A stretch of 64,000 nt of DNA from Aestuariivivens sediminicola. GTDB taxonomy: Bacteria; Bacteroidota; Bacteroidia; Flavobacteriales; Flavobacteriaceae. Location: NCBI RefSeq assembly GCF_022662015.1, contig NZ_JAKMCM010000002.1, positions 372,001 to 436,000 of the forward strand, written 5' to 3'. The notes beneath the pieces were generated by a model. That model saw nothing but the letters and a program-made list of their open reading frames with translations, had not been told where the DNA came from and did no database searches. The position numbers and the translations under genes are program-made. Of this stretch, positions 17,651-34,046 are shown piece by piece; the first letter of the stretch is position 1; the number at the start of each line of letters is the position of its first letter.

Positions 17651-17737
17651 CAATTCAACATATAAAAGTTACATTTCTTTTAATGTTATTCTAAAAATAA
17701 AGTGTTAATTTAGCGCACTAGTTCATAAACGTAATAT

Positions 17738-17855
17738 GTTATCAAGAAAGGCAGAGGGAATAGACCCAATGAAGCCTTGGCAACCCTTTTCCTTTTAACT
17801 CTTGGGATAAGAAGGTGCTACATTCTACTAACACCAATGGTGTTGGAAAGATAAC
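17738..17855 (+). promoter_or_regulatory. SAM-I (S-box) riboswitch upstream of split metH-metF
   Basis: A second S-box: GTTATC (17738-17743) pairs with GATAAC (17850-17855) as P1. Inside are AGAAAGGCAGAGGGAATAG, ACCCAATGAAGCCTTGGC, AACCC and GAAGGTGCTACATTC. A hairpin of GAAAAGT (17856-17862) with ACTTTTC (17872-17878) follows immediately and probably forms the expression platform. It differs in its P2-P4 loops from the copy at 2839, so the two are not a recent duplication. Confidence 0.91.
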
Positions 17856-17910
17856 GAAAAGTGTTTCCTAAACTTTTCTTGATGACATATCGATATAAAA
17901 AATATCAAAC

Positions 17911-28569: not shown

Positions 28570-29466
28570 TCAATTTACAGTCAAATCTCTGAACAATCGC
28601 TCCAGGCTGGCATTTTTCTGATTTAATTGAAGAATTTTTAATTGGTTGTCATGTGCAAAATCGAAAACATGTGAACGCATATCTTCCGATGTTTTAAAGG
28701 TGATTTCGTAAACAAAACCGCGCGTATTGTTTACATGATCTGCCTTTGGGATCTGTAATAGAAAGGCGTCCTCGACCCGGTAATCGAATTCTACAATTAC
28801 CGTTTGTTTCTTTTCGGTCTGAAGGTCACTTAATGTTCTGTCGGCAACAATTTCTCCTTTGTTTATAATGATTACCCGCTCGCACATCGCTTCAACCTCC
28901 TGCATAATGTGAGTTGATAAAAATACCGTTTTGGTTTTTCCTATTTCCGTAATGAGATGCCTTATATCGACCAGTTGATTGGGGTCCAGGCCGGTTGTAG
29001 GTTCATCCAGAATAAGGACATCGGGATCGTGTAATAGGGCATTGGCCAATCCAACTCTTTGGCGATACCCTTTGGACAATTCACCAATTTTTTTTTGTGA
29101 TTCCGGTAGTAACCCTGTACGTTCAATAACCTCATCAATACGCTGTCTTCCTATGTTAAAAATAGAAGCACTGAAATTCAAATATTCTTTAACGTATAAA
29201 TCCAGATATAATGGATTGTGCTCGGGCAGATAACCAACACTGTTCTGAACCATTTTAGTATCGGTGGTGACATCAAACCCGTTAACTTTTATCTGTCCTT
29301 CGTCAGCGGAAATATAAGTTGTTAAAATTTTCATCATAGTGGATTTCCCAGCGCCATTAGGCCCTAAAAAACCAACAATTTCAGGTTTATTCACCTTAAA
29401 GGAAACATTATTCAGAGCCCTTTGAGAGCCATAAAATTTCGAGACACCAATAACCTCTATTGACAT
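28570..29466 (-). CDS. gldA: Gliding motility ABC transporter ATP-binding protein GldA
   Basis: An ABC ATPase of 298 residues. Walker A is GFLGPNGAGKST near residue 32, the signature LSKGYRQRVGLANALLHDP near 133, and Walker B VLILDEPTTGLD near 152; the switch His is in FLSTHIMQEVEAM. In Flavobacterium johnsoniae GldA pairs with GldF and GldG, which are not in this window. The C-terminal 80 residues are the extension typical of GldA. A multidrug-type ATPase is the alternative, but the start ISVIGVSKFYGSQRALN-like region and the gld context favour GldA. Confidence 0.85.
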   Translation of the reverse strand: MSIEVIGVSKFYGSQRALNNVSFKVNKPEIVGFLGPNGAGKSTMMKILTTYISADEGQIKVNGFDVTTDTKMVQNSVGYLPEHNPLYLDLYVKEYLNFSASIFNIGRQRIDEVIERTGLLPESQKKIGELSKGYRQRVGLANALLHDPDVLILDEPTTGLDPNQLVDIRHLITEIGKTKTVFLSTHIMQEVEAMCERVIIINKGEIVADRTLSDLQTEKKQTVIVEFDYRVEDAFLLQIPKADHVNNTRGFVYEITFKTSEDMRSHVFDFAHDNQLKILQLNQKNASLERLFRDLTVN

Positions 29467-29712
29467 AGGAACGATATTTATTCAAAAGTACATGAATTTT
29501 TTTACTTAAAAATTCAGAATGATAAAAGAGACGCCTCTTAGAGGTATGGTGACACGGACAGATCTGAACAGGATAATAGAGAGAATTTAGTTTTCAAAGG
29601 CGAAAGATAACGATTGTATAAGATAAGCTATGGTTTGGTGTAAAATTGATAAAATTTGATAAAAATTATAAAAAAAAGGATTTTAAGTGTTTTTATATTT
29701 TAAAATATTAGT

Positions 29713-29720
29713 TACTTTAG
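29713..29720 (+). promoter_or_regulatory. Candidate -7 box of the aromatic operon leader
   Basis: TACTTTAG, one mismatch from TAnnTTTG, 10 nt before the leader peptide ATG. No clear -33 TTG is visible at the right distance; the upstream DNA is A/T-only. Confidence 0.3.
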
Positions 29721-29730
29721 CCACCTAATA

Positions 29731-29790
29731 ATGACTATGACAGCGTATTATACATATTTTAACAACTGGTTTTATTTCTTTTTTAGATAA
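29731..29790 (+). CDS. Aromatic leader peptide (attenuator) of the phe/tyr operon
   Basis: A 19-codon reading frame encodes MTMTAYYTYFNNWFYFFFR. Ten of nineteen residues are aromatic (5 Phe, 4 Tyr, 1 Trp), with an uninterrupted Trp-Phe-Tyr-Phe-Phe-Phe run just before the stop. Such composition is the hallmark of ribosome-stalling leader peptides. An AT hairpin (29813-29829) and an intrinsic terminator (29839-29865) follow, then pheA. I infer that low charged Tyr or Phe tRNA stalls the ribosome and lets RNA polymerase read into the operon. The alternative helix that would prevent the terminator is not obvious by eye. Confidence 0.8.
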   Translation: MTMTAYYTYFNNWFYFFFR

Positions 29791-29838
29791 AGAAACGGGG
29801 CGTTGTATGTATAATTTATAAGATAAATTGAATATAGG

Positions 29839-29865
29839 GTCTCGATGAAAATCGGGACTTTTTTT
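29839..29865 (+). terminator. Attenuator terminator before pheA
   Basis: GTCTCGAT (29839-29846) pairs with ATCGGGAC (29851-29858), eight pairs with one G-T, closed by a GAAA tetraloop and followed by seven T. It lies 49 nt after the leader peptide stop and about 100 nt before pheA, where only a regulated terminator makes sense. Confidence 0.85.
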
Positions 29866-29962
29866 ATGTGTTAAACTAGTTTTTAGTGTTGACGGTGCAA
29901 TTAAAATTAAATATGGAAGCCATCTGGAGTAGTTTCAGGTTCTCAATTTGTTATGAACGTAC

Positions 29963-30790
29963 ATGATTAAAACAGTAGCCATACAGGGTGTAAAAGGGTC
30001 CTTTCATCACATTGTCTCCCAGGAGTTTTTTAACAGTGATGTAGAGGCGATCGAGTGCCTGACTTTCGACAGGGTAGTTGATGCACTGATTCATGAGGAA
30101 TGCGATGCGGCTATCATGGCTTTAGAGAATTCGATTGCCGGTTCCATTATTCCCAATTATGCATTACTGGACCATTATAACTTACATATGGTCGGAGAGC
30201 ATTATATTGACATTCAACACAATCTAATGGTCCTTCCGGGACAGACCATTCAGGATGTAAGAGAAGTCTATTCTCATCCTATGGCCCTGTTGCAATGCAA
30301 GGAATTTTTTAAAACCTATCCTCATATTAAACTGGTAGAGGATAAAGATACCGCAGAAGTGGCCAAACGGATAAATGAAGGACAATTAAAGGGAATAGGA
30401 GCTATAGCAAGCATTATGGCCGCCGACATATTTGAATTGGATATTCTGGCACATAGCATTCAAACCATAAAGCACAACGAAACCCGTTTTGCAATAGTCA
30501 AGCGAACCAATTCGGAAGTGCCGGAAAACGAAATCAACAAGGCCTCCATAAAGTTTGAAACCGATCATAAGCGGGGCAGCCTGGCCACCATTCTTAACGT
30601 TATGAGTGATTGCAAGCTGAATTTGACCAAAATACAATCGATGCCTATAATTGAAACACCCTGGAAATATTCGTTTTTCGTCGATGTTACTTTTGCTACC
30701 TATATGGATTTCAAAAAGGCAAAATCGGTAATAGAAATCATGGGTCATAATTTAAAGGTGTTGGGGGAATATAAAAATGGAAAGTTATGA
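29963..30790 (+). CDS. pheA: Prephenate dehydratase
   Basis: A 275-residue monofunctional enzyme that makes phenylpyruvate from prephenate. The catalytic part has VAIQGVKGSFHHIVSQEFF, DAAIMALENSIAGSI, VYSHPMALLQCKEF and NETRFAIVKR (the TRF motif with catalytic Thr). An ACT domain for phenylalanine sensing follows (FETDHKRGSLATILNVMSD, LNLTKIQSMPI). There is no chorismate mutase domain; that activity is fused to DAHP synthase downstream. First gene of the attenuator-controlled operon, overlapping the aminotransferase by 4 nt (ATGA). Confidence 0.95.
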   Translation: MIKTVAIQGVKGSFHHIVSQEFFNSDVEAIECLTFDRVVDALIHEECDAAIMALENSIAGSIIPNYALLDHYNLHMVGEHYIDIQHNLMVLPGQTIQDVREVYSHPMALLQCKEFFKTYPHIKLVEDKDTAEVAKRINEGQLKGIGAIASIMAADIFELDILAHSIQTIKHNETRFAIVKRTNSEVPENEINKASIKFETDHKRGSLATILNVMSDCKLNLTKIQSMPIIETPWKYSFFVDVTFATYMDFKKAKSVIEIMGHNLKVLGEYKNGKL

Positions 30791-31932
30791 TTGATGTAGC
30801 CAAACGTCTCCATTCGGTCGAAGAGTATTACTTCTCAAAAAAATTAAGAGAAGTAAACTTGCTTATTGCAAGTGGTAAACCTGTCATCAATTTGGGTATT
30901 GGCAGTCCTGATCTAAGTCCGCCACAAAAAGTTGTGGATACCATAGCGAACAGTTTATTTGATTCTAATGCCCATAAATATCAGAGTTACCAGGGGCTTC
31001 CGGAACTTCGGGATGCCATGGCCGGTTTTTACAAAGAACATTACCAGGTTAACCTGAGTCCGAAAACAGATATCTTACCGCTCATTGGCAGTAAGGAAGG
31101 TATTATGCATATTTCTCTGGCCTATTTGAATGAGGGTGATGCCGTTTTAATACCAAACCCGGGTTACCCTACCTACCAATCGGTGACCAAATTAGTGCAG
31201 GCAACACCTATATTTTACGATTTGGATAAGAGGAACAATTGGTTGCCCGATATAAAGGCTTTGGAACAACTAGATTTGAGTAAGGTAAAATTAATGTGGG
31301 TTAATTATCCTCATATGCCTACCGGTGCCGTTCCTACGGCCATGGCATTTCGAGAATTGGTCGAATTCGCAAAGCGCCATCGTATTTTAATTGTGAACGA
31401 TAACCCCTATAGCTTTATCTTGAACGACTCCCCAATGAGCATTTTAAGTGTGGAAGGCGCCAAAGACGTCTGCCTGGAGTTAAACTCATTGAGTAAAACC
31501 TTTAATATGGCCGGATGGCGTGTGGGTATGGTGGTTGGACAAAGCGAACATATCAACAATATATTAAAAGTAAAAAGCAATATGGATTCGGGGATGTTCT
31601 ATGGCATTCAGAAAGGCGCCATAGAAGCGCTTAAATGCTCGAAGATGTGGTATGTTACTTTGAATAGTGTTTACAAAAAACGACGTGAATTGATCTGGCA
31701 ACTAGCGGAATCTTTAAATTGCACCTACGATGTGAAGGCGACTGGTCTTTTTGTTTGGGCCAAATTACCGGCCTATCTCAAGGCCGAAGAGTTTATAGAT
31801 TTGGTACTCAAAGAACACCATATATTCATTACCCCGGGTACGATTTTTGGCAGCCAGGGCGAAGGGTATATCCGATTTTCTTTGTGTGCACAAACCGAAG
31901 ATATCGAAGAGGCAATTGCCAGAATAAAATAA
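30787..31932 (+). CDS. Aromatic-type PLP aminotransferase, class I
   Basis: A 381-residue fold-type I aminotransferase. PLP lysine lies in LNSLSKTFNMAGWRVGMVVG; other motifs are INLGIGSPDLSPP, YQGLPELRDAMAGFY, NPGYPTYQSV, NYPHMPTGAV and NDNPYSF. It starts inside the pheA stop (ATGA overlap) and precedes tyrA. The position between the two enzymes that make phenylpyruvate and hydroxyphenylpyruvate indicates that it forms Phe and Tyr. By sequence alone it could also be an aspartate or diaminopimelate-type aminotransferase. Confidence 0.88.
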   Translation: MIDVAKRLHSVEEYYFSKKLREVNLLIASGKPVINLGIGSPDLSPPQKVVDTIANSLFDSNAHKYQSYQGLPELRDAMAGFYKEHYQVNLSPKTDILPLIGSKEGIMHISLAYLNEGDAVLIPNPGYPTYQSVTKLVQATPIFYDLDKRNNWLPDIKALEQLDLSKVKLMWVNYPHMPTGAVPTAMAFRELVEFAKRHRILIVNDNPYSFILNDSPMSILSVEGAKDVCLELNSLSKTFNMAGWRVGMVVGQSEHINNILKVKSNMDSGMFYGIQKGAIEALKCSKMWYVTLNSVYKKRRELIWQLAESLNCTYDVKATGLFVWAKLPAYLKAEEFIDLVLKEHHIFITPGTIFGSQGEGYIRFSLCAQTEDIEEAIARIK

Positions 31933-32019
31933 TTGAGCAATGAATAGCATGGTATCCGAAACTTTAAAGTTAACAGTAATTAATAAAAGCCCTCTCCAAT
32001 GGCGGGGGTTTGTAGTGGT

Positions 32020-32871
32020 ATGAAACAGATATACGCAATAGGAATTGGATTAATCGGTGGAAGTTTGGCTAAGGATATCAAGAGGCTTGATCCGGAAGTG
32101 GTTATTCACGGTATAAGTAGAAAAGAGGCTACACTTAATGAGGCTTTAGCCTTGAATTTAATCGATAAGAAAGCCACATTAGACGATATACATAAAGCCG
32201 ATCTGGTTATTGTATCGATTCCGGTAGATGCCACTGTAGCCTTATTACCAACCATTTTAGACAAGATTTCAGATCATACTTTGGTTGTTGATGCGGGATC
32301 GACAAAGGAAGCCATTTGCAAATCGGTTGAAGACCATCCAAAACGCCGAAATTTTCTGGCTATGCATCCTATTGCGGGCACAGAATTCTCTGGACCCAGT
32401 GCTGCTATAGATAATTTGTTCTTAGGGAAGACGAATATCATATGCGAAGTCGAAAAGACGGCTTTTAAGCTGCAGGAAAAAGCCTTGAAACTGTTTGAGG
32501 GCATTGGGATGCGTATGCGTTACATGCATCCGGTGGCGCATGACAAGCACATTGCCTACGTGTCGCATCTGTCGCATATCAGTTCCTTTATGTTAGGGAA
32601 AACCGTTATAGAAAAGGAGAAGAATGAACGTGATATTTTCGACATGGCCAGCAGTGGATTTGCCTCGACGGTGCGTTTAGCGAAAAGTTCGCCCGAAATG
32701 TGGACGCCAATTTTTAAGCAAAATAAGGATAATGTTATTGAAACATTAGAGGAATATATAAATAACCTCATTCAATTCAAGGCGCTCATGGAAGGCGATA
32801 ATTTTGAGGCTGTTTTTAAAGAAATGAAAGATACGAACCACATTAGGGATATTTTAAACGGAATTATTTAG
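32020..32871 (+). CDS. tyrA: Prephenate dehydrogenase
   Basis: A 283-residue NAD-dependent enzyme that makes 4-hydroxyphenylpyruvate. The Rossmann motif AIGIGLIGGSLAKDI starts at residue 5; further motifs are VSIPVDATVALLP, DAGSTKEAI and AMHPIAGTEFSGPSAA (catalytic His). An in-frame ATG at 31999 would add seven residues; 32020 is preferred because the Rossmann strand then begins as usual. No ACT or mutase domain is attached. It is third in the aromatic operon. Confidence 0.93.
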   Translation: MKQIYAIGIGLIGGSLAKDIKRLDPEVVIHGISRKEATLNEALALNLIDKKATLDDIHKADLVIVSIPVDATVALLPTILDKISDHTLVVDAGSTKEAICKSVEDHPKRRNFLAMHPIAGTEFSGPSAAIDNLFLGKTNIICEVEKTAFKLQEKALKLFEGIGMRMRYMHPVAHDKHIAYVSHLSHISSFMLGKTVIEKEKNERDIFDMASSGFASTVRLAKSSPEMWTPIFKQNKDNVIETLEEYINNLIQFKALMEGDNFEAVFKEMKDTNHIRDILNGII

Positions 32872-32963: not shown

Positions 32964-34046
32964 ATGGAAAATAAGAAAGACATGAGAAACTGGTTAGATG
33001 ATTTAAAATTAGATCATCCACTGGTCATTGCGGGACCATGCAGTGCTGAAACGGAGGAACAGGTATTGAAGATTGCACATGAGTTAAAGGATACCGATGT
33101 GAATTATTTTAGGGCCGGTATTTGGAAACCCAGGACCCGACCAGGAAATTTTGAAGGTGTCGGTTCTCTAGGCTTAAAGTGGCTCCAGAAGGTTCAAAAG
33201 GAAACCGGTATGAAGGTGTGCACCGAGGTGGCCAATGCGGCTCATGTAAAACTGGCCTTGGAGCACGATATTGATATGCTCTGGATTGGGGCCCGATCGA
33301 CGGTAAGTCCGTTTATCATGCAGGAAATAGCCGATGCATTGGAAGGTACCGATAAGCCTGTTCTTATTAAAAATCCTGTAAACCCGGATTTGTCCTTATG
33401 GTTAGGAGGCATTGAACGCATTTACAGTTCCGGAGTAAAGAATATAGGAGCCATACACAGAGGATTTTCAACTTACCAGAAGACCAAATATCGCAATATA
33501 CCGGAATGGCAGTTGGCCATCGAGTTTCAAAATAAATTTCCGGACATTCCATTAATTAACGATCCGTCCCACATCACGGGTAAACGCGATATGATTTTTG
33601 ATGTCTCTCAGGAGGCCCTGGATTTAAATTTTGATGGTTTAATGATTGAAACACACCATGATCCGGATAATGCCTGGAGTGATGCAGCACAGCAGGTAAC
33701 CCCTTCAACACTGGTACAAATTATGAGAGATTTGAAAATAAAAAAGGAAACCGATGCAGAAGCGGAATACGTGAGCGCCTTGAGTAATTTAAGGGCACAG
33801 ATTGATGTGGTGGACAATCAAATTATTACCTTGTTAGGGAAACGTATGGAGGCCGCCGACGGTATAGGTGCTTTAAAGAAAAGTAGAAATGTCGCCGTTT
33901 TGCAGTCCAAAAGATGGAACGAAATTTTGGGAAAAATGGTGTTGGAAGGTGAGCAACACGGGTTGAGTGAGGAATTTGTCTTGCGTATGTTTAAGGCCAT
34001 TCACCAGGAATCTATCAACCATCAGGAAAAGATTATAAATGGATAA
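32964..34046 (+). CDS. Bifunctional DAHP synthase / chorismate mutase
   Basis: A 360-residue fusion of the first shikimate-pathway enzyme with the branch-point enzyme to Phe and Tyr. Residues 15-255 are a type I-beta DAHP synthase barrel (VIAGPCSAET, FRAGIWKPRTRPGNFEG, KNPVNPDLSLWLG, DPSHITGKRD, ETHHDPDNAWSDAAQQ). Residues from about 275 are an AroQ chorismate mutase (LRAQIDVVDNQIITLLGKRM). In such Bacteroidota fusions prephenate bound at the mutase inhibits the synthase; that is family knowledge. It supplies prephenate to PheA and TyrA of the same operon. Confidence 0.94.
   Translation: MENKKDMRNWLDDLKLDHPLVIAGPCSAETEEQVLKIAHELKDTDVNYFRAGIWKPRTRPGNFEGVGSLGLKWLQKVQKETGMKVCTEVANAAHVKLALEHDIDMLWIGARSTVSPFIMQEIADALEGTDKPVLIKNPVNPDLSLWLGGIERIYSSGVKNIGAIHRGFSTYQKTKYRNIPEWQLAIEFQNKFPDIPLINDPSHITGKRDMIFDVSQEALDLNFDGLMIETHHDPDNAWSDAAQQVTPSTLVQIMRDLKIKKETDAEAEYVSALSNLRAQIDVVDNQIITLLGKRMEAADGIGALKKSRNVAVLQSKRWNEILGKMVLEGEQHGLSEEFVLRMFKAIHQESINHQEKIING

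Follow-up and report, generated by a model that had tools for sequence, protein, structure and literature searches.

The pheA operon of Aestuariivivens sediminicola is very probably preceded by a ribosome-mediated transcription attenuator, predicted from sequence to sense charged tRNA-Phe and tRNA-Tyr through one leader peptide that across the family often carries a Trp codon too. In the window, the whole 64,000-nucleotide stretch of DNA that was analysed, clustered control codons are followed by an intrinsic terminator ahead of pheA and by an operon making the amino acids that those codons specify, and computation found an antiterminator that excludes the terminator and is free to form with a ribosome on the control codons. 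The leader, terminator and antiterminator, together with their conservation, covariation and spacing, were established by sequence and computation. The layout of ribosome-mediated attenuation proposed in the initial annotation is thus supported by a conserved aromatic run and terminator and by a covarying antiterminator.

The leader peptide gene lies at positions 29731-29790 of the window, on the forward strand, and translates to MTMTAYYTYFNNWFYFFFR, in which 10 of the 19 residues are aromatic. Codons for Y, Y, Y and F, with one Thr between them, fall within 29746-29760, and a run of W-F-Y-F-F-F spans 29767-29784, with a single Arg codon separating it from the stop codon at 29788-29790. Translation therefore confirmed the 19-codon frame with ten aromatics, including Trp-Phe-Tyr-Phe-Phe-Phe near its stop, that had been described initially. 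A possible -7 promoter box, TACTTTAG, is located on the same strand at 29713-29720 and matches seven of the eight positions of TAnnTTTG, given as the flavobacterial -7 consensus in passages of PMC9723704. An eye count in the alignment showed TTACTTTAGC to be retained in 25 of 32 close genomes. If 29713-29720 is the -7 box, the transcript could possibly start a few nucleotides 5' of the leader ATG. Scanning the leader region for E. coli-type sigma-70 promoters gave no match.

Alignment of 32 close genomes (one of 33, L022, was left out because its loop differs) showed gap runs of 3 nt (38), 6 nt (6) and 2 nt (1) within the leader, so that 44 of 45 were 3 or 6 nt long, and of 1 nt (36), 2 nt (24) and 3 nt (4) after the leader stop, where 60 of 64 were 1-2 nt long; the runs are not independent events, because many of the 3-nt runs are one insertion in one genome. 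This conservation of the frame points to translation of the leader. Gaps in multiples of three and the keeping of the aromatic codons also argue against a protein- or metabolite-bound RNA switch in which the short frame is incidental. Such a switch would suit the strong conservation of the RNA segments and the presence of a terminator, but the leader region has no Rfam riboswitch or T-box match and the position of the antiterminator tracks where the aromatic run ends, and we regard this explanation as very improbable.

Downstream of the leader and on the same strand, Pfam confirmed the gene order pheA-aminotransferase-tyrA-DAHP synthase that the initial annotation had given. The first gene, pheA (29963-30790), encodes a prephenate dehydratase (Pfam PDT, with a sub-threshold ACT match) and is followed by a class I/II aminotransferase (30787-31932, Aminotran_1_2), the prephenate dehydrogenase tyrA (31999-32871, PDH_N and PDH_C, with NF006307 above cut-off) and a DAHP synthase-chorismate mutase fusion (32964-34046, DAHP_synth_1 and CM_2). 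The best NCBIfam models for the aminotransferase are LL-diaminopimelate aminotransferases, below cut-off; judging its substrate from the operon, the enzyme is presumably an aromatic aminotransferase. Together these genes cover the pathway entry and both the Phe and the Tyr branch.

A scan of 29600-29970 returned a single terminator-like site, compared to a mean of 0.0 in shuffles. Its stem pairs 29838-29846 with 29851-29859 around a GAAA loop, and its T-run occupies 29859-29865, in agreement with the previously described intrinsic terminator with a GAAA loop and seven T, now placed at about 29838-29865. By scan and fold, the terminator 5' arm (29838-29846, forward strand) is segment 3, which is also the 3' partner of segment 2, and 29851-29865 on the same strand holds segment 4 and the T-run. 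Segment 2 (29796-29808, forward strand) forms the 5' side of the antiterminator, with 29796-29801 paired to 29839-29844 and 29803-29808 paired to 29832-29837 in the fold. The apical AT hairpin (29812-29830, forward strand) pairs 29812-29819 with 29823-29830; the AT hairpin reported initially is real, as the tip of this longer antiterminator. The competing helix had been called not clear by eye, and it does exist: folding pairs 29796-29801 with 29839-29844, and this pairing covaries across the family. Together the three antiterminator helices reach -15.5 kcal/mol in a fold of 29785-29846 and a z of -5.5 against shuffles in the window, where the leader region overall is also more stable than shuffles (z -2.5). 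Because the first helix takes six bases of the terminator 5' arm, antiterminator and terminator are mutually exclusive. Segment 1 (29747-29757, forward strand), which falls within the codons Tyr-Tyr-Thr-Tyr, forms in the fold an 11-pair 1:2 helix with 29805-29815. In near relatives, segment 2 (often CGAGAC or CGAGGC) is nearly identical to segment 4 (CGAGAC or CGGGAC), and both compete for GTCTCG.

In the mechanism that we propose, RNA polymerase would transcribe the leader gene with a translating ribosome following closely. A shortage of charged tRNA-Phe or tRNA-Tyr, and perhaps also of charged tRNA-Trp, would stall this ribosome in the aromatic run. There it would block the pairing of segments 1 and 2 and end just short of segment 2, which would then be free to capture the emerging segment 3 as the antiterminator and allow transcription of the pheA-aminotransferase-tyrA-DAHP synthase operon. 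When the amino acids are plentiful, the ribosome would reach the stop and either cover part of segment 2 or leave and let the 1:2 helix form; with segment 2 unavailable, segment 3 would pair with segment 4 to make the terminator. We infer the stalling, the tRNA sensing, the read-through and the coupling of transcription to translation. This arrangement is like that of the E. coli trp and Salmonella his attenuators, which have codons for the product in the leader and 1:2 and 3:4 helices opposed to an exclusive 2:3 helix.

One genome per genus was drawn from the family, 199 in all with that of the window among them; 178 of these had a pheA match, and 147 were examined. The remaining 31 pheA-bearing genomes, including G035, G048 and G067 (G035 and G048 near a contig end), fell outside the examined set. 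An aromatic leader was found in 146 of the 147, in 143 by a fixed criterion and in three more by eye that the automatic call had missed: L052 and L102, with leaders more than 400 nt upstream, and L123, with a leader of six aromatics. By eye, L129 had no leader, and its pheA stands without the other three genes within 5 kb. All 30 of the closest genomes, window included, carried the leader. A lack of conservation of the aromatic run or terminator in related genomes had been named beforehand as refuting the attenuator reading; both proved conserved, with the leader present in these 146 genomes and a terminator in all 143 that were scored. In 113 of the 147 loci pheA is followed on its own strand by the genes for the aminotransferase, tyrA and DAHP synthase (in a different order in L132), and 29 further loci have the aminotransferase and tyrA downstream, these loci being shorter so that a fourth gene would fall past their end.

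The density of aromatic codons was compared with controls. Counting the window, 139 of 147 family genomes have a short frame with at least 8 aromatics in 14 residues in the 330 nt before pheA. The corresponding counts in the controls were 16 among 2940 stretches of the same length taken beyond the start of pheA, 1 among 147 reverse-strand stretches and 3 among 735 shuffles. These numbers bear on whether the hairpin could be a plain terminator of an upstream transcript accompanied by a chance frame, as a T-rich region easily yields Phe codons. The 139 of 147 genomes set against 16 of 2940 controls, the conservation of the frame, and the nearest long upstream frame being on the opposite strand (28570-29466) make this the least credible of the explanations, at a probability close to nil. 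A chance frame as such was rejected on frame conservation and on an aromatic density far above controls.

Codons for both Phe and Tyr were present in 143 of 143 scored leaders, with means of 5.4 and 3.7, respectively. Trp codons were found in 93 of the 143, as a single codon in 90 of these 93, suggesting that the sensed signal may be all three aromatics. The initial annotation had called the sensing of Phe and Tyr by one peptide unusual, which is fair but not unprecedented, as the ilv leaders of E. coli sense several amino acids. A peptide this rich in aromatics could alternatively act by nascent-peptide arrest, in which the peptide in the exit tunnel stalls the ribosome on free Phe, Tyr or another small molecule and throws the same RNA switch; TnaC is an example of small-molecule-responsive arrest of this type. 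The run is near invariant among close relatives, where it is often WFYFFF, and across the family Y-F-F-F predominates at its positions -4 to -1, both of which would fit arrest. An arrest peptide is expected to keep specific residues, however, and here Phe, Tyr and Trp interchange at run positions, codons come and go, and the run differs elsewhere in the class (for example, GYFYYF, FYFYFF, YFFCFF) with its density kept. The interchange of Phe, Tyr and Trp fits charged-tRNA sensing better than a specific arrest peptide, and the logic of starvation fits as well, since the operon makes what the codons need; we give arrest a small probability.

Segment 2 was found to start 9-11 nt past the last aromatic codon in 104 of 129 genomes in which at least 60% of the terminator 5' arm is paired upstream, compared to 55 of 815 shuffles reaching the same pairing. 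A ribosome with an E. coli-like footprint and a codon in its A site ends ~9-10 nt beyond that codon, so the start of segment 2 lies at about the expected edge of a ribosome stalled at the last aromatic codon. Between the last aromatic codon and the end of the terminator 5' arm, the RNA was also more stable than shuffles, with a median z of -3.4 and 123 of 143 leaders below -2.

Pairing between segments 2 and 3 was then assessed by a swap test that uses no structure-fitted alignment. The best 6-mer core in a 24-nt stretch was taken alike for own and swapped combinations in 135 genomes with a definable core (8 of 143 were dropped). Own cores paired at all six positions in 108 genomes and at five in the other 27, and cores swapped between genomes paired at all six positions in 24% of cases. 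At core pair 3, 77 genomes have T-A, 53 have C-G, five have T-G and none has a mismatch. In the 92 model-aligned rows of alignment A3, which derives from 86 of 147 family loci and includes seven weak antisense rows, 236 double-change cells were counted against a shuffle mean of 86, with none of 500 shuffles as high and slid versions giving 35-61, although this count leans towards structure because A3 was fitted to the model's structure. Double changes occurred at all six core pairs, and 96.7% of core cells pair. Less favourably, among 21 close genomes the antiterminator had no double changes and did not beat shuffles, and the 1:2 helix was marginal, with 46 of 500 shuffles pairing as well and 44 of 500 covarying as much. 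The MAFFT alignment A1 shifts segment 2 by one column between clades and was unused for pair counts.

A covariance model made from 21 leaders gave matches with E no higher than 0.001 in 49 of 100 family genomes, some of them by construction because it was built from members of the same family, and missed 51, many of which have a leader by frame search. Of its 50 matches, 49 were located 2-515 nt upstream of pheA on the same strand, and the 50th lies at the end of a contig, and its genome has a further copy linked to pheA; in these 100 family genomes no match was seen before any other gene. The distance of 515 nt belongs to locus L262 (G013:C21), where a tandem repeat of ~110-nt units (235-653) sits between the attenuator and pheA.

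Folding of both states, which the initial annotation had suggested as a check, was performed with ribosomes placed along the leader in 142 genomes, one of 143 being left out for its distant terminator. Both structures fold, but the equilibrium fold of the full leader shows no switch: the terminator was preferred at every ribosome position, with a probability in the window of 0.87-0.98 at all positions but one (lowest, 0.67), and its family mean dipped only to 0.77 in the run, the stop exceeding the run in 112 of 142 genomes. Equilibrium favours the terminator because the apical hairpin can coexist with it, and the switch must consequently be decided during transcription. A switch did appear, by computation, in a co-transcriptional fold restricted to the RNA exposed before segment 4, with a ribosome footprint of +9. 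In the 142 genomes, segment 3 was held upstream with a mean probability of 0.75 when the ribosome was on the last six codons of the run, falling to 0.49 one codon past the run, 0.30 two codons past it and 0.41 at the stop; the family mean was 0.61 when no ribosome was placed. This fall in segment 3 capture coincides with the end of the aromatic run and shifts by at most one codon with a footprint of +7 or +11. Capture was higher in the run than at the stop in 130, 130 and 127 of 142 genomes for footprints of +7, +9 and +11. In the window itself the co-transcriptional contrast is modest, at 0.67 in the run, 0.43 at the stop and 0.57 with the ribosome absent.

The window's genus differs from most of its family in where the leader ends. 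In all four Aestuariivivens genomes the leader stops right after the run, before segment 2, whereas in most close relatives it continues with residues like SKRNEALYV into segment 2, and in 120 of 129 family genomes the stop codon comes no earlier than the start of segment 2. Three congeners of the window's genome were compared; the named species closest to it are Aestuariivivens sediminis, A. insulae and A. marinum, with PheA identities of 92, 90 and 88%. Unlike the stops of E. coli trp and Salmonella his, the usual family stop corresponds to one of two low-basal designs in PMC1183508, passages of which propose that placing the stop well downstream within region II is one way of keeping basal read-through low, and attribute the high basal level of trp to ribosomes being released early at its stop codon. 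Applied to Aestuariivivens, this model predicts higher basal expression, which the genus-wide early stop may cause. The genomes thereby offer a natural series of stop-codon positions as a test of the published model that stop placement sets basal read-through.

The kind of regulator is already known; what is new is the anatomy, the covariation, the spread, the ribosome "ruler" and the genus-wide early stop. The enterobacterial pheA leader likewise has a Phe-rich leader, alternative hairpins and a terminator, and controls the same gene, with E. coli pheL sensing Phe alone. Here, by comparison, all 143 scored leaders have Tyr codons, and tyrA and the DAHP synthase gene belong to the operon as well. 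The enterobacterial family, RF01859 Phe_leader, was the best Rfam match to the window leader, on the same strand and over model positions 1-125 of 125, but at 21.4 bits against a gathering score of 55 (E 0.27) the window leader is not a member. A T-box or known riboswitch was rejected as the identity of the leader, there being no such Rfam match in the leader region.

Closer to the window, passages of a 2021 study of Flavobacterium psychrophilum report strong signs of attenuation by leader peptides ahead of amino-acid operons, as well as 5' elements preceding pheA and hisG that have no Rfam hits and are found in other genera (PMC9723704). The pheA element there concerns the same gene in the same family and is likely the attenuator described here; in the main-text passages neither a peptide nor a structure is given, nor the amino-acid specificity or any occurrence outside the family. 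The uORFC-13-1 motif before aroF of Acholeplasma, as described in parts of PMC8632094, likewise combines a frame with one or more Phe codons and a terminator before a DAHP synthase gene, but it is limited to Acholeplasma and environmental sequences and has a U run coding at least one Phe. Passages of PMC4833913 survey leader genes in several phyla including Bacteroidetes and do not mention the pheA attenuator, and passages of PMC7366714 mention leader-like short frames in Bacteroides thetaiotaomicron. Among the matches listed (open papers, by titles and abstract starts), none treated the peptide or structure of this attenuator; a 2010 comparative attenuation paper cited in PMC4833913 may overlap.

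Outside the family, 23 of 24 pheA-matching genomes were examined in the same order, 23 of 24 in the class outside the order and 28 of 127 elsewhere in the phylum. In the order, such leaders were seen by eye in 9 of 23 loci, and three further loci (L232-L234) have a shorter leader with five aromatics in the counted stretch; none was seen in L250-L254 (five divergent pheA of one family), L239, L241-L243 or L238, and L248 is a partial gene. L239 and L241-L243 are from 0.6-Mb genomes that retain pheA, the aminotransferase and tyrA with no recognisable leader, and the attenuator was apparently lost along with genome reduction. Of the 23 genomes examined in the class outside the order, 20 have a frame with at least 7 aromatics in 14; the three lacking a leader are of one genus (L167-L169), in which pheA directly follows another coding frame, one resembling aroA. 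Leaders were present in 4 of 28 genomes examined elsewhere in the phylum (L172, L179, L184 and L190, in G327, G349, G215 and G264). These four have a class-like pheA of ~42-46% identity, the other 24 having identities of ~30-39%, and it is possible that pheA and the attenuator were transferred as one unit.

These distributions describe a regulatory RNA family that, across a large class, appears to govern the synthesis of aromatic amino acids; its copy in the window reaches the threshold of no Rfam family. Attenuation works only if the first ribosome closely trails the polymerase, and a leader in 146 of 147 family genomes with ribosome-edge geometry makes coupling in this phylum directly testable. 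More tentatively, and with somewhat less than even confidence, we suggest an old, class-wide Bacteroidia attenuator family in which one peptide would read all three aromatics, initiation would proceed independently of a Shine-Dalgarno sequence, and the antiterminator would have been selected to sit where a ribosome on the last aromatic codon has its leading edge, itself evidence of tight transcription-translation coupling in the phylum. Stop placement would then tune basal expression, and Aestuariivivens would have moved from a low-basal to a higher-basal design.

Two other amino-acid operons in the same genome have comparable leaders, which we count as support for the attenuation reading at pheA. 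A His-rich leader, MNFIHTHHHSLICTQAK, lies upstream of hisG (L255, G000:C15, locus bases 1190-1243) and is followed by a terminator-like hairpin, making it a likely his attenuator. A Trp-rich leader, MTILNTIWWWCFRN, stands before the anthranilate-synthase gene trpE (L256, G000:C19, ~1270-1314 on the gene strand), again followed by a terminator-like hairpin, and is likely a trp attenuator. By eye in the short-frame list, no leader was evident at ilvD, at two homoserine dehydrogenases or at a second chorismate-binding gene of this genome. Away from the leader, the window also contains two SAM riboswitches above the Rfam gathering score, at 2838-2963 and 17736-17857.
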